Source: Fabrea salina
Taxonomy: Eukaryota; Ciliophora; Heterotrichea; Heterotrichida; Fabreidae
Reading direction: 5' to 3'
Length of the DNA stretch: 64,000 nucleotides
Assembly (NCBI GenBank): GCA_022984795.1
Contig: JALIHJ010000041.1
Location: 62,001 to 126,000 of the forward strand
The translations under genes were made by a program, and so were the position numbers. The notes below the pieces were generated by a model that ran no database searches, was not told where the DNA came from, and saw nothing but the letters and a program-made list of their open reading frames with translations. Positions 1 to 8,850 of this stretch are shown here, piece by piece. The stretch's first letter is position 1; each line of letters begins with the position of its first letter.

Positions 1-1944
1 CTACTCAAAGACTTTAGGAGAAGACTGGTTCACAGACTCGGAATCTAGCTTCTACTTCTCAATAGGGACCGAACACTCTTCTACTTTCAGCAACTTCTTC
101 ACTGGTTTCATCTGGGAAGTTAGAATCTACAACTCAGTCACCGACCTAGAAGATCTACTCCAAGACTCCAGCTGTGAAGGTTGCAACTTCTGCCCAGTAG
201 AAAACTCAAACAAGTGTCTATCTCTTTGCAGGATAGACCAGTTCTGGGATGGAGAGCAATGCATAGACTGCCTATCTGACTGTAAGTCCGGGTGTATCAA
301 CAACTCCACTTGCAGTTTGTGTGGAAACGACCTATGCCTAGAATGCACCTTTGAAGAGTGCACCGAGTATGTAGACAACGCATCAGTGGCCAACAGCACT
401 TGCGGGTGCGACCAAGGTTTCATTGAAGAGTACGGGTTCTGCAACAGAGGAACATTCTCTGCCAACCTCACCAGCAAAGACAACACTCTGACACTAGAAT
501 TCTCGGAGGACTTAGACCCTGAACTTAGCACTGAAGACTTTGAATTGACTTTGCAGAATGACACCATCAAGTTCGACTACAAACTAGAAACAACCACAAG
601 AACCCAATACAAGATCACCATGAACTTTAAGAACTACGTGCCTGACAAGGACCAGTGCTGCTCGAATTCAAAAAGGAGATAACTAGCCAAAACAACCACT
701 TACTAACAAACAAGACTCTGGAAGGAAAACTAGAGAAATACAAACCATCAATCTCAGTTATTGAAGAGTCGAGAAGCAGAACTCAAGAACCAGTAGGAAT
801 TACAGCGTTTATAGTGTGTGTCCTAGCATTGTTCAACTCCAACCCTTCAAACTTCTGGAGTCTCATGAACACTCTGGAGATCCTATCCTACATTCCATCA
901 ACTAACAACCAACTCACACCAACTCTTGTAGGATTCTTCGAAGGTTTGAACTTGCTGGATTCAATACCTGCTGGAATCAATGACTTAGTCAGGATAATCA
1001 CTGGAGAAGAGTCCAGTTTCCTGACTAAGTACCTGGCCAAAGACTCAAAACTGTTCCTGTTGAACGCTGGAGTGAGTATACTGATAATGGGTGTACTGCT
1101 ACTGCTATGGCCTATAGTCTGGGCAGTATCTAAGATCGTCTACTTCAAGAAACCACTTGGAAAACTTTTGGCAGAGTACAAGTTCAACGTATTCACTAGG
1201 TACTGGATCCAGTGCTACTTGGACTTGTCGATTGCAGGGTTCATCCAATTGGCTTCAGTACCCAACATACAAGTAGTAGGAGTCTTCAACTACACTTCTG
1301 CATGTTTGGTGATGGGACTCCTTGCAGCAACTCCAGGTGCTTTCTCTTGGTTCATGAAGGCCAAAAAGGAAGACATAGCTGCTGAAGAAGAAGGGTTCTA
1401 CCAGAAGTGGGGAGCACTGTTCCAAGAACTAAAGTGCGATGATAACCCACAAGCTGCCTTCTACTACTTCTTCACTCTGAAGAGGTTGGTGTTTGCAGCT
1501 AGTGTAGGAATACTAGGAAACCATCCCTACATTCAGGCAATTGTCAACTTAGCCTGCATAGTAGGGTTCCTAGTTGTTATTCTAAAAGTCAAACTCTACT
1601 TCAAGAAATCAACTCTAGTGATGCCAGCAGCAACAGAGATAGTGGTGAGTCTGGTGTTTCTATTGGTGATCTACTTTCTGCAGAGTGACTGGAGAGACCT
1701 GGACACCTACATAGAAGTATCAATCATATGCTTAGTGGCTGGAGTAAGTGGAGTCCAGTCACTGATACCTCTATTTGGGTTGATCACTAAGTGCTGTTGC
1801 AAAAGTCCCACTTCAGTAGCCAGAGTGATGTTCTTAGATGGAAACACTCGAGGAGAAATTAACCGAACAGAAGAGAACATTAATACTTTTGTGAGTACGA
1901 AGCAGAGGCCTAGACGGCTTACAACAATTCCAATAAATAAATAA
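1..1944 (+). CDS. Cys-rich, LamG-like multi-pass membrane protein (5'-truncated by window edge)
   Basis: The reading frame is open from the window edge, so the N-terminus is missing. The visible part has the end of a LamG/ConA-like module (ending FFTGFIWEVRIYN), furin-like Cys clusters, a beta-rich stretch, and about eight hydrophobic segments (roughly 780-1790). It is clearly paralogous to the large minus-strand gene at 3313-8850, including the segment before the first membrane span. Around 653-655 the frame changes by one base: alignment to the paralog needs one missing nucleotide between codons for DKD and VLLEF, and no GT...AG intron fits. This may be a real frameshift, a pseudogene lesion or an assembly error. 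A 15-nt intron-like stretch at 1891-1905 keeps the frame, so it cannot be decided. Likely a surface receptor or channel-like protein; function unknown. Confidence 0.75.
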
Positions 1945-3312: not shown

Positions 3313-6300
3313 TTAATCTAGTACTATTGACTTACGTACTTTGGCTTGGTTATTGGGACGTGCATAGATAGGATATTCCGAACTCAAAATCCAACCAGGA
3401 CTATGAAAAATATCCTGCTGGTTGCTAGTTCCCATAGTTGTAACTTCTTGAGAGATCTGAGGAGTTGTGTCCTTTTTAAAAAAACGATCGTAGATTTTGA
3501 ATCCCAAGTCCAAAAGCATACTTAAAGCCCTTGAGCAAGTCACTGCAAATGCTGAGCAGATAATTATAGTTTGGACTGTTTCTTCGTGCTCTAAGTCACT
3601 ATCTAAAAAGTAAATAACCGCTGCGAATATAAGAAAAGTGCCTAATTCTACGAACATGGAAACAATCTGCGTAATCTTGTTTTTATAAGGTCTCACTATA
3701 ATAACGAAACCCCCAAACAAAAACATCAGTCCACAGTTGACATAAGCCTGAAAGTAAGGGTAACTTCCTAGGAGTGTTAAACTCGCTGCAAACAAAAGTC
3801 TTTGTAAGGTGAAAAATACGTAGATAAAGCAAGCCTTAAAGTCATGCTTGTAGTTTACCTCGTAAAATAGAGTTCCATATTTGTTGTAAGTTTCTGAGTG
3901 TTCAGATATGGACTTTAGTTGGTCTTTTTGATAGTAGAAGAAAAGAACTATAGCTACTGGAGTAGCCACAAGGAGACTAACAGCAATGACTGCAGCAATT
4001 GTACTGCTAATAACTACTGGCTCAGTATTAGAGAATGAGGACAACTGAATAAAGCAAACTATTGCTAAGTCCTGGTAACCCTGAACCCAAAATCTAATGA
4101 ACAGAGTGAACTTGTATTTTCTCAGTAAGAACTCGGATGCTTTGTTAACCCATGAAGCTTTGCACTTTGAGAGCAGCCAGATAAACGGCCAAGCCACTAA
4201 AAGGGAACAGAATATCGTGATAGTTAGCCCAGCGTTGATCAGGAAAAGTTCAGATTTAAACCCGTAGTCATTAGAGTACTTTTCAGTGTTAGGACTTTGG
4301 CTGCTTTCAATCACAAGATTGAATAAGCTTGGAATGCCAACTGTAAGATTAAGCCCTTTGAAGAAGCCTCTTAAGGTAGGAGTGAGCGGGTTTTTGGAGA
4401 TCGAAAGGTAACTGAGCAACTGCATAGTGTTCAGCATAATCCAAAGTCCTGAAGGGTTGGAAGTGATCAGCGAAACACTTACTCCGCCTAATAAAGACCC
4501 ACCTGCTACTTGTTGGCCTGAGCTTTCAGCTTCTTTGCTGTAGATAGGAGTTTCGTCAGTTGATTTGACTTTGTAAAGTTGAGTGCTAATTTCGTTCGTA
4601 ACTAAGGTGTGGTTCAAACTACTCAGAATATCAGCACTGAATACTATCTGAACTACCTCTCCTTCTTGGACATATGAGTCAAAGGCAATGTCTATCTTGT
4701 ACTCAGCGAGACTAGACTCTTCTAAGGTGTAGCTAGCAGGATTGTTTTTAAGTAACAACTGAAAATCTTGCTTTTTAAGTGATGTTTTTAAGTCCTCTGA
4801 GAAACTTAAGTTCAACAAGTTATCAACTTGAGTTGTTAAGTTAGCTTGGAAAGTTAGGTCTGGGTCCACACAACCTTTGTCATTTTCAGAGTTGCAATTT
4901 TCACAAATGTAACCGTTCCAAAAGTGTTCTGCTGTGCAGATAGATAAGCACTCGTTAGAGTTTTCAATGGGACAGTGGTCACAGGTTTTGCAGTTCGAAG
5001 ACTGCACTAGAGTGCTAGGGTCTTTTTGAGCATTGTAAAGTTTAAGATCCCATAAAAACCCAGAAAAGAATTCACCGAAAGTGTTAGCCCCGTCCAAGGC
5101 AGCTCCAATTACTAGGTGGTAGTCACTTTGGAAGTCTTCTAGCCAATATTCTCCTAAGCTGATCGAATCTGTGCAGGTGTTGTTTACCTGAATAGTAACT
5201 TTGGGTTCAGAACTTACACTTGCTGAAACGGCTAAAAAGTTCCAGTCTCTATTTACGGAGCACTTGCTTTGAGGAGCATCGTACCCTGGAATATCTAGGT
5301 AAACTTTGACGTAGTCTGAGTCAATTCCAACTGAAATAGACTTAGTGTAGGGAGGAGTGCTTTTTTGTTTCGAAAAAATAGTTCCAGAAGTAGACGTTGG
5401 TTTGAACCAACTAGTCAAGGTGAACTCAGGTGATACCAACATTTTAGAACTGCAGTCTTGTCCACATTCATAATGCATGTAAGAGTCGTCAGTGAACAGG
5501 TAGCCTCTCCCTTGGGTTGGATAAGGGTCTCCTTGGGAAGGTTGGGGATAGAAAGAATCGTCACTGCCACTTGAAAAAGGAATCGAAGATCCAGACTCTG
5601 TCACAGTGTCTTCTATAGAGTGGGGCTGAAAGTTTAGCAGAAGGTCGTTTGATAACTCACAGACCCCGTTGTCAAGTGAGTAACCAGAAGGGCAGAAAGG
5701 AAGACACACTTTGCTGACTAAGTAGTAGTTAGCTGAGCATTGAATGCAGTTGTTGAATGCTGAGCTAGTGCAGGAATCGCATTTATCAGTGCATAAGTCA
5801 CAGGCTTCAGCAGCAGAGTTCCAATAATGCTTAGAATCACACTCACAGTCAGGAGGACCAGAAGCATTTTGGATGCAAACATCACAAGTAGAAATATTCT
5901 CGCAGGTTTTGCACTTTTGTTCAGAGCAAAGGTTGCAGGAGGAGTCGTTTCTGACGCAGCCAGTGACTTGGCAGTTTTGGTGGCAGGTCCCACACGAGCT
6001 TTTTTCTTCATCCCAGTACTCGTTTATCTTGCAGATTGACAAACACTGGTCTAAGTTGCCGCTTGGACAGTGAGTGCAGCCTCCAAACCCTGAGCACCCA
6101 GAAGACTGTAGCAAGCTAGAAGGGTCATAGTTTGAGTTGTAGATTCTGAACTCATACAAAAACCCATGGAAGTAGGCACCTATAGAGCCAGCCGACACAT
6201 ACTCAGCTCCAATGATTGAGATGTAGTTGCTATTGAGGTCTTGGAAGATGTTTGTCCCAGAGTCATGGACTGTAGGTGATTCATTGTTCAGAGAGACAGA

Positions 6301-8850
6301 AATCTTGTTTGCAGAGGATTCTACATAGGATCTAAAGACTAAGAAGCTTCATTGGTCAGTAGGTGCTGAGCCGCTTCCAACTTCAGTGTTGCCTGATGAA
6401 TTTAACTCCACTGCTATTTTTGGACCGTCTGTTCCTAGGTAAACTTTGATGTATTTTTTAGTATGGTCTGTAGCATCCTCTTTGGAAAACAAGACTCCTG
6501 GTTTTGAGTTAGGCATCACCCAGAAGACCAAAGTGAATTCCGGTGAAATGATTAATCCCGTGTTAACACTCATGTAAGAAGATACCCCATTGAAGTAGTA
6601 TCCTCTTGCTCCTGCAGCTATTGGGTCGGTTGGGCCATAGTCAGGGTAGAACCTGCTGTCTTCACCTGTATTTATAGGGATCGAACTGGCTTGGTCTTCT
6701 GGAGTGTCAGAAATAATACTTCCTAAGTTTAAGTGGAACATCAATACGTCTCCAGGTGTGGGTGTGCATACTTCTGAGTTATCTGTGAAGCTAGTGGGGC
6801 AGAAATTAATACACATTCCCTGCACTAAGTAGTAACTTGAGGAACAAGCTTCGCAATCGTTCATGTTTCCACCAGTGCAGCTATCACAATTGGCAGAGGT
6901 GCAAGCAGAACATTCTTGGTTGCTATCTGCAAAGTACTCAGCTATGCATTCACACACACCGTCTACATCTGCAGCATTAGTCTTGCAGGCCGAACACCCT
7001 GGTCCAAAACTACTGCACTCTGCACAAAGTTGGTCATCGCATAGGTTGCAATTGCCTGTCCTCACACAGCCCCCAGAGCAAGAGGCATCGCAGTTCTGGC
7101 AGCTACTTCCATCCCAGTATTGGTCATAGTTGCAGTTCCATAAACAGCCTCCAACGTTGGAGTCAGTGCATATGTCGTCATCAGTGTATACAGCGGTATC
7201 GACCTCTCGGATGATTTTTATCTTGTAGACAAATCCAGAGGCTGAGGAACCTCCTAACTTAATCTTTCCTTGTGCTTGAGGTCTGAATATTCTATCAGCA
7301 TCAGAGTCAGTTTCTTCTCCAGATGGGTTATAAACGTACCTCTTCAGAGTGGTTCCAGAAGCACTTGAAAACCCACATGTAAACACAGAATAGTGCCATT
7401 CTTCAGTAGTAAAAGTAAAGCCTAGAGTCTTATCGGCTTCATACACATTGTGATCTTCCAGTTTAAGTTTCAGTCCTGTTCCAGTGTCCAGGGATAAGTA
7501 ACTCCCTCTTTCTAAAAGGATTCCGTTTGTTTCTACTCTAAACCAGAGACTGATCGTAAAGTCGTAGTGAAAGTCGAAGTTGTTTGATGACTCAAGGAAT
7601 CTGTTGGAGTCTAAGTACATCCCTCTTTCCTTCATTGGTAGTGGGTCGTCAGCATCTCCAGTATTGAAAGGGAAGTAGGTACCTGCATTAGCTCCTGTTT
7701 GGAATTCAGTTGGACTAAAGCTTGTAAAGGTTTCTTCTAAGATGGCTCCAGTTACAGAACCGCAGGACCCGAAACCAGTAGGACAGTAACGCATGCATAT
7801 ACTGTTTAAGCGAATTCCACTGTCACAGGATGCGTCGTCTTGGCATTCCCAAGGATCAGTTTGGCATGTAGTGCACAAGTAGTCACAAGTTCCACATCTT
7901 AAGCTGCAGTCTGGAGGGTTGTAGGTAGTAGAAATTTCCTGGTCGTCGTTTTTGAATACCATTCTGTATAAGAAACCTGTAAACCCATATCCTATCGTCC
8001 AGTCCCCAGATGATCCGTCCCTAGACCATCTATTAGTGAGATCTAATGAATCTTGTTCTGAATCGTCCTTATAAGCTTTGAGAATAACAATGTTGTACTC
8101 AGAGCAAGTGTTTGTAGTACAAGACATACCCTCACCACAAACGACTGTACAAGGATTGGAACCATCACAATTTGCTCTGCAAGTAAATTCACCAGCGCCA
8201 TTGCTGCAAGTTTCTTCGCAAGGATTGCCACTGCCGTCACGACCTCTTATTCTCGTCGTCTTAAAAGCAATCTTTTTCCAGGTATTTAGATCCTGAGTTA
8301 CTTCTACCAGGCCTTCTACAGTGGTCCCAGAACTCGTCGTCGAGTCAACAAGCTGTATATAGTAAACTAATTTCCCATCCGAAGTGCACGCTACCCCTAA
8401 CTGAGTTTCATGCTCCACTAAGCTAGTACCACTAGTGCACGACTCAAGCCTCACCCAAAAGACTAGAATATGACTTAAGCCGTATATGTAATTGCAGCCC
8501 ACACAATTGAGTTTGTCTGATCCATCAAAATAGTAACCTTTTTGTGAGTCATGCTCTAAAGAGCCAACCTCAGTAAAGCTTCCGATAGATAGCATATATA
8601 ATTCAAGATCAAACACGGTTGTACTCGAACTACAGTCACACCAAGCGTCCCCTGATCCGCCAGAGCAGTCAGAATTACGACATTGTTTTGTGCAATGACT
8701 TGGACACTTTTTAGCGCAAGTTTCATCGTATTGGGGATATGATGGACCACTACAGCGAGTACAATGCCCACCTTCGTTGTGCATACAGTTAGGCACACCC
8801 GTTGTCAATAAGGCCCTATAAGCCATAAGAATCACTAGGAGCATTTTCAT
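3313..8850 (-). CDS. Giant Cys-rich/LamG-like multi-pass membrane protein with one in-frame TGA
   Basis: About 1845 aa if the single in-frame TGA (6349-6351) is read through. The start at 8850 gives a signal peptide (MKMLLVILMAYRALLTTG); an upstream in-frame ATG at 8904 is possible. Four LamG/pentraxin-like modules alternate with furin-like Cys-rich clusters, then a beta-rich region and about eight membrane segments (roughly 3490-4470). The order matches the gene at the left window edge. The TGA falls where the sibling modules have Trp (DLNTW, TEEWH, RDWNF), and the frame stays open for another 1012 codons. So it is either a UGA-Trp/readthrough gene or carries a nonsense mutation. Probably a surface receptor or channel-like protein; I do not recognise a named orthologue. 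Confidence 0.8.

Follow-up and report, generated by a model that had tools for sequence, protein, structure and literature searches.

An in-frame TGA at an invariant tryptophan codon in a LamG-module gene family of the heterotrich ciliate Fabrea salina, and its recurrence in a paralogue

Results

The gene and its surroundings

The window analysed here is a stretch of 64,000 nucleotides (positions 62001-126000 of contig C39, which has 240,000 bases) from the Fabrea salina genome, comprising 18.33 Mb in 103 contigs. Its minus strand carries a long gene belonging to a family characterized by LamG modules, Cys-rich stretches and a hydrophobic C-terminal part, the last two recognized by eye. The features of the gene are listed in Table 1. 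The frame was found to be open from an ATG at 8850 to a TAA at 3313 but for one TGA, as the initial annotation had it, and the codons at Trp places comprise 24 TGG and this single TGA. Neither a second stop nor a frame shift was found in the 1011 codons past the TGA, and the reading frame is the same on either side of 6349-6351, in agreement with the original description of a module which continues unshifted across the codon. When the protein was read through as Trp, its best stretch in the Pfam profile Laminin_G_3 (PF13385) was residues 755-906, and when the two halves of the gene were scored apart, other and weaker LamG stretches came out as the best. The TGA thus sits inside a domain. The Trp described at the matching place of the other modules is indeed encoded by TGG, at residues 191, 485 and 1203. 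Of the four LamG-like modules originally proposed, three gave Laminin_G_3 matches, while the first, with Trp191, was recognized by eye and had no Pfam match of its own.

Table 1. Features of the LamG-module gene, in window coordinates.
Feature	Position	Strand	Remarks
Whole frame, ATG to TAA	3313..8850	-	1845 codons plus TAA, one TGA; surface-protein-like family
In-frame TGA, codon 834	6349..6351	-	Invariant LamG Trp; context CAA-TGA-AGC
Part upstream of TGA, 833 codons	6352..8850	-	Product if UGA stops translation
Part downstream of TGA, 1011 codons, stop-free	3316..6348	-	
LamG_3 domain cut by TGA, residues 755-906	6133..6588	-	68.6 bits for the protein, best stretch 755-906
Upstream LamG_3 match, residues 423-506	7333..7584	-	Trp485 is TGG at the matching place (TEEW)
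Trp191, TGG (DLNTW)	8278..8280	-	First LamG-like module, by eye, without Pfam match of its own
Downstream LamG_3 match, residues 1140-1274	5029..5433	-	Trp1203 is TGG at the matching place (RDWNF)
C-terminal hydrophobic, probably multi-pass membrane region, residues ~1440-1845	3316..4533	-	By eye; lost if UGA terminates

Two side observations concern the surroundings of the gene. A frame on the plus strand, at window positions 646-1944, encodes a protein (NPSNFWSLMNTLEILSYIP...) which by eye is similar to the hydrophobic C-terminal part of the gene, and a LamG module match lies directly before the window, at C39:60635-61315; together they look like a neighbouring family member. In addition, the WD40 matches at the ends of the contig are mirrored, the two coordinates of a pair adding up to 239,810 in six instances, with equal scores in five of these (e.g., 3624 with 236186 and 3750 with 236060), as if C39 carried inverted terminal repeats of several kb.

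It is highly improbable that the TGA is not a codon at all, but is spliced out, bypassed by a frameshift or read as selenocysteine. Introns of 15-16 nt are common in the genome, which would favour splicing, yet no GT..AG span of that length was found near the TGA. Six in-frame GT..AG spans of 60-108 nt do cover it, but each would delete at least 20 domain residues, and an intron was rejected on these grounds; the equality of the frame on both sides argues against a bypass. Selenocysteine was rejected as well, since Rfam gave only sub-threshold matches at the site and no SECIS among them, and the aligned residue is an invariant Trp, not Cys.

The tryptophan codon in paralogues and homologues

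The codon at the site was TGG in 20 of the 21 other modules examined, and the remaining one, on contig C12, has a TGA. All 17 fetched paralogue loci (L027-L043) carry TGG at the site, and the C12 locus (L026) carries it in three of its four modules, with the TGA in the fourth. Trp was also found in all four public homologues that were aligned, out of ten proteins found. These proteins came from searches with the two gene halves, giving 3 and 7 matches with the best-scoring ones 64% and 60% identical, respectively; candidates of 0.55-1.75 times the query length were admitted, a range in which an uninterrupted allele of ~1845 residues would not fall. The family is large, as a module search of the genome returned 152 matches (150 of the 241 candidates scored). 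A TGA was present in one of 136 matches to the LamG_3 profile, the window's own, and the C12 module with the TGA was absent from these 136.

Recurrence of the TGA and frame shifts in the family

The genome search with the read-through protein gave 83 matches (25 of 312 candidates scored), of which two were TGA-bearing, the window gene and the C12 locus. The C12 TGA, at C12:38156-38158, occupies the same codon, reading NSNQ-TGA-NFLVFKSY compared to TDQ-TGA-SFLVFRSY in the window. A tree built from 23 modules placed the C12 module with the TGG-bearing modules of C29 and C43 (support 99/99), apart from the window module, which forms a long branch without firm place. The TGA label required two changes on this tree, and a single change sufficed in none of 200 bootstrap trees. 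In the 100 nt following the codon, C12 shares 97% identity with C29 and 59% with the window. Since the sister module on C29 has TGG, the tree and the local DNA identity indicate that the TGA arose twice, separately in the window and in C12. A single ancestral TGA common to both was ruled out by the tree and the DNA comparison, and gene conversion between the two was rejected by eye, as they have a short context alone in common and no conversion tract.

A third TGA at the same codon was found among the listed matches of the module search, at C71:72526-72951. This copy has at least two frame shifts, one of them shortly before the TGA, and lies ~4 kb from the contig end. It is a possible third case of doubtful sequence, to which we give little weight.

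A selected, programmed readthrough, yielding a short, secreted product and a long one anchored in the membrane, would fit with the recurrence at one codon and with the position of the stop, which divides the LamG modules from the hydrophobic C-terminal region. We consider it very unlikely: the stop halves a LamG domain and is absent from 20 of the 21 modules, the RNA after and around the TGA folds no better than shuffled sequences (z 0.23, -0.60, -0.31), and the Rfam matches are below threshold.

The C12 locus was selected on the basis of its TGA and is not to enter rates. It carries two frame shifts, at 38.6 kb and 34.6 kb. The first of them lies at a T4, compared to T5 in the sister module of C12 itself, and may be a consensus error. 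On the other hand, C12 and C71 may be dead genes, given their frame shifts, and those of C12 are the strongest single point against a reading of the UGA as Trp.

Frame shifts were also noticed elsewhere in the family. In members otherwise intact they occur, besides the two of C12, at C16:176946 and perhaps at C70:96.1 kb, and consensus errors, pseudogenes or real ribosomal shifts are candidates for their explanation. Family fragments near contig ends have them at C52:181.1 kb, C35:5.4 kb, C71:72-76 kb and C45:209.4 kb. When the C52 fragment was compared to C68, gaps and mismatches were clustered between long perfect runs, a pattern that looks like unpolished long-read consensus. Several further stop flags in the family were dismissed by eye: the one on C46 is a 15-nt intron, that at C71:75950 adjoins a repeat, the C57 flag is at the gene end, and those on C45, C52, C35 and at C71:71773 are downstream of frame shifts. 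The C70 flag has no 15-16-nt intron and is probably due to a frame shift.

Constraint and in-frame stops

Constraint is alike on either side of the C12 TGA: for C12 compared to C29, dN/dS was 0.28 in the part of the module upstream of the TGA, and three downstream stretches gave 0.25, 0.20, and 0.21. A cruder alignment over the whole length, in which the extra C12 module is misaligned, gave 0.29 before and 0.38 after the TGA. For part of the C-terminal region of the window gene compared to C29 dN/dS was ~0.10 with synonymous sites saturated. The relatives compared with the window gene are distant (dS 1.4-2.4, synonymous sites likewise saturated), and therefore its lesion-free 1011 codons are the sole evidence of constraint; a young mutation in this gene would look equally lesion-free. 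Conservation of coding sequence beyond the stop, a feature of readthrough sites, is present in the LamG_3 match, the C12/C29 dN/dS and the homologue alignment.

In-frame stops were counted in a sample of 270 kb with 66,155 codons of long frames. The only TGAs which interrupt a frame coding on both sides were those of the window and C12; both stand at the conserved Trp, and TGAs in such frames off conserved Trp, which the initial annotation took as evidence against its reading, were not found in the sample. TAA or TAG was present 28 times inside coding frames, of which 18 were flagged as 15-16-nt introns, 9 were followed within nine codons by an ATG, as expected at the start of a next gene, and one, C17:199987, was left unexplained. 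The two TGAs carry neither flag, both flags being simple rules applied without cDNA. A stricter first pass had recorded one TGA (C12), 11 TAA and 6 TAG, and missed the TGA of the window.

The probability that a random one-step nonsense change in the window gene is TGG to TGA was 0.028-0.080, and that it strikes this named codon 0.001-0.003 (transition/transversion weights 1-4 in both cases). However, the window case was picked as a TGA at Trp, so that C12 alone, and weakly C71, are fresh evidence. The modules contain 2-7 Trp each, and the coincidence of the column is therefore modest once a TGA at Trp is granted as tolerated.

Sequence context of the TGA codons

All three TGAs, in the window, C12, and C71, stand in the context AA-TGA-A. 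The shared context was recognized only in retrospect; of 816 sampled TGG codons, 6 are preceded by AA and followed by A. Five TGG modules (L026_2771, L027, L029, L030, and L031) have the same context, which consequently does not force the change. Neither a mutational hotspot nor a base-call error from AATGGA to AATGAA received support, as neither hexamer count in the sample deviated from expectation (AATGGA 161 seen and 173 expected, AATGAA 220 seen and 226 expected). In the 270-kb sample we also observed a strong avoidance of A-ending codons ahead of codons with T as the first base (7.6-10.5% in the sets examined, the 7.6% being for TGG and ~8-11% for the other T codons examined, compared to 28.9% overall), and the rarity of AA-TGG-A is due to this general avoidance, not to a depletion of AATGGA.

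The hexamer counts bear on an assembly or sequencing error as well, by which a TGG would be given as TGA. The assembly seems to carry indel errors, chiefly near contig ends, but the window gene is interior and without a frame shift over 5.5 kb, and C12 would need the identical error, while the sample is neither short of AATGGA nor enriched in AATGAA. For the window gene we regard such an error as unlikely.

According to a citation in a passage of PMC8087045, Tork et al. (2004) reported that readthrough in yeast is promoted by adenines at positions -1 and -2, although the transcriptome-wide yeast study of PMC8087045 itself saw no such effect. UGA readthrough in yeast inserts mostly Trp, according to a passage in PMC4967479.

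UGA use across the genome

No TGA was found in 134 kinase matches (134 of 483 candidates scored), seven of which contained TAA or TAG, and no stop of any kind in 150 WD40 matches (150 of 2118 candidates scored). The kinase motif DxWSxG with TGA gave no match genome-wide; its TGG version is present once in 264 kb, so ~70 sites stand behind this zero. The WD40 motif with TGA matched at four places, and ~200 matches with TGG are expected genome-wide, scaled from 3 in 264 kb. The four were dismissed as sense UGA, for a different frame is the open one at each of them. Among the unrelated genes examined, i.e., outside the LamG family, none had an in-frame UGA at a conserved Trp. UGA is not a regular Trp codon in the F. 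salina genome.

As a terminator TGA was found at 3 of 97 coding-like ends, with the window and C12 cases removed. The many TGA-terminated genes which, according to the initial annotation, would speak against UGA as Trp were thus not encountered, but UGA is not entirely without terminal use either, as it would be in a code of the Blepharisma type. All three frames (C29:58555, C39:147655, and C39:5382) have GT next and an in-frame TAA 1-6 codons on. A passage in PMC4967479 states that 1% of poly(A)-ended transcripts of F. salina end in UGA. In this genome UGA hardly serves as a stop and is almost without a job.

Fabrea is described as using UGA only as stop in a passage of PMC13092985, and as having the canonical code in one of PMC10553269. 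The titles and abstract openings surveyed in the literature on the genome and code of Fabrea contain no report of an in-frame UGA.

tRNA-Trp and eRF1

Two identical tRNA-Trp(CCA) genes were found in tandem on C1, with an anticodon stem, TCTGA/TCAGA, of five pairs as counted by eye; the only other match to them was a tRNA-Arg. A tRNA-Trp(UCA), proposed as a check in the initial annotation, was searched for with a pattern that gave 63 matches compared to 70 in the control, and none of the 7 UCA-type matches tested was a tRNA, the pattern covering tRNAs of standard spacing without introns. Neither a 4-bp-stem nor a UCA tRNA-Trp, as expected for a general reading of UGA as Trp, was found in the genome search. 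A passage of PMC13092985 ties UGA reading to a 4-bp stem, which Fabrea and Stentor are said to lack while using UGA only to stop, and the 5-bp stem found here agrees with the tRNA part of this statement.

The eRF1 gene is situated at C29:24527-25735 (L002). The protein reads EYGKAANIKSRVVRNAV, with KAANIKS in place of TASNIKS, the motif YICDNKF, and Ala at human position 70 (yeast 67). Its nearest named proteins, among the best 120 of 7772, were those of Blepharisma stoltei (73%) and Stentor coeruleus (71%); a public sample (P0012) contains an eRF1 that is 99% identical to it. Ala at human position 70 was shared by 19 of 121 aligned eRF1s, Stentor coeruleus and Blepharisma among them, and Ile at human position 126 by 5 of the 121, including both Blepharisma stoltei proteins. 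In the eRF1 inspected here both residues are as in Blepharisma stoltei, but Ala70 is also that of Stentor, for which the standard code is stated. A passage in a preprint (PMC12440015) reports S67A in various ciliates with UGA as sense codon, and single eRF1 changes do not track codes according to a passage in PMC4967479. Since Ala70 is present in 19 of the 121 eRF1s including Stentor, it may be a predisposition at most.

Discussion

The reading which we favour, tentatively and with a little less than even confidence, is that the UGA at the window site is read as Trp, perhaps with partial efficiency. It is suggested by an in-frame TGA at an invariant Trp of a gene otherwise intact, a separate recurrence in the nearly intact paralogue C12, the context AA-TGA-A, and the rarity of terminal TGA, together with the sequences of the tRNA and eRF1. 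We infer that ribosomes would pass the codon and insert Trp, presumably because the near-cognate tRNA-Trp(CCA) outcompetes a release factor that seldom acts on UGA. With UGA nearly abandoned as a terminator, termination at this codon would probably be weak, and the two adenines before it may weaken termination further. Under such circumstances a change from TGG to TGA at this place would cost little, and could have survived in at least two paralogues. Compared with the original proposal that UGA is Trp, at least sometimes, the case has gained the recurrence in C12, the like constraint on both sides, the AA-TGA-A context and the lack of clear in-frame TAA or TAG nonsense; a general use of UGA as Trp in the manner of Blepharisma was not seen in the genome, nor were the tRNAs expected for it found.

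The alternative that has to be taken most seriously is plain loss, in which nonsense mutations hit a large, redundant and fast-duplicating family and UGA stops translation. The window gene would then be a young pseudogene or the source of a truncated secreted product, with C12 and C71 as older pseudogenes. We judge this nearly as likely, and Trp reading by the ordinary tRNA-Trp only somewhat more likely. The size of the family, with its 152 module matches, the frame shifts which C12 and C71 also carry, likewise C16, C45 and perhaps C70, and the fact that one G-to-A transition suffices are all in accordance with plain loss. The same is true for the canonical tRNA-Trp and for the kinase, WD40, and DxWSxG results, which give no sign of a global UGA recoding. 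However, the same codon would have been struck twice separately, with no clear TAA or TAG of like kind in the sample and no relaxation past the C12 TGA, and the frame shifts partly resemble consensus errors (T4 versus T5 in C12; C52 versus C68).

If UGA is indeed read as Trp at these sites, F. salina might be at the earliest stage of a UGA reassignment. UGA would be ambiguous, its reading as Trp being confined to the context of weakest termination (AA-UGA-A) and, so far, to members of a single dispensable family of surface proteins, while the 5-bp tRNA-Trp is unaltered and eRF1 resembles that of Blepharisma. We put this forward as a possibility, rather doubtful at present and clearly less probable than the Trp reading itself. 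Should it be true, the tRNA change follows the first sense UGAs and does not precede them. The route by which stop codons turn into sense codons has long been a question, and most of what is known of the proposed ambiguous stage comes from species in which it has spread already. A heterotrich with a canonical tRNA-Trp, a near-vacated UGA and a few UGAs at Trp sites would make the order of changes in release factor, codon depletion and tRNA testable, and in the window and C12 copies the positions at which reads, footprints, peptides and reporters would be informative are precisely defined.

Among known systems Blepharisma, a heterotrich relative, is the most similar, in that UGA is aligned to conserved Trp, termination is dominated by UAA, and eRF1 has Ala70 and Ile126. 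UGA is used at 0.059% in B. japonicum (a passage in PMC4967479), and Blepharisma has a tRNA-Trp with a 4-bp stem (a passage in PMC13092985), whereas in F. salina we found one case per ~66,000 sampled codons besides C12, and a stem of 5 bp. Condylostoma magnum and Parduczia share with the present case that UGA may be sense and stop according to place. Within the genes of these ciliates each of the three stop codons is by default read as sense, as stated in a passage of PMC4967479, while in F. salina TAA and TAG are not sense and TGA almost never is. The resemblance to known readthrough consists of a canonical tRNA, Trp as the usual insert, and an AA before the stop, reported as a promoting context. 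Known readthrough mostly yields short extensions at low level (a passage in PMC4967479); here, in contrast, more than half of the gene is downstream of the UGA, and the site formerly encoded Trp and did not terminate a gene.
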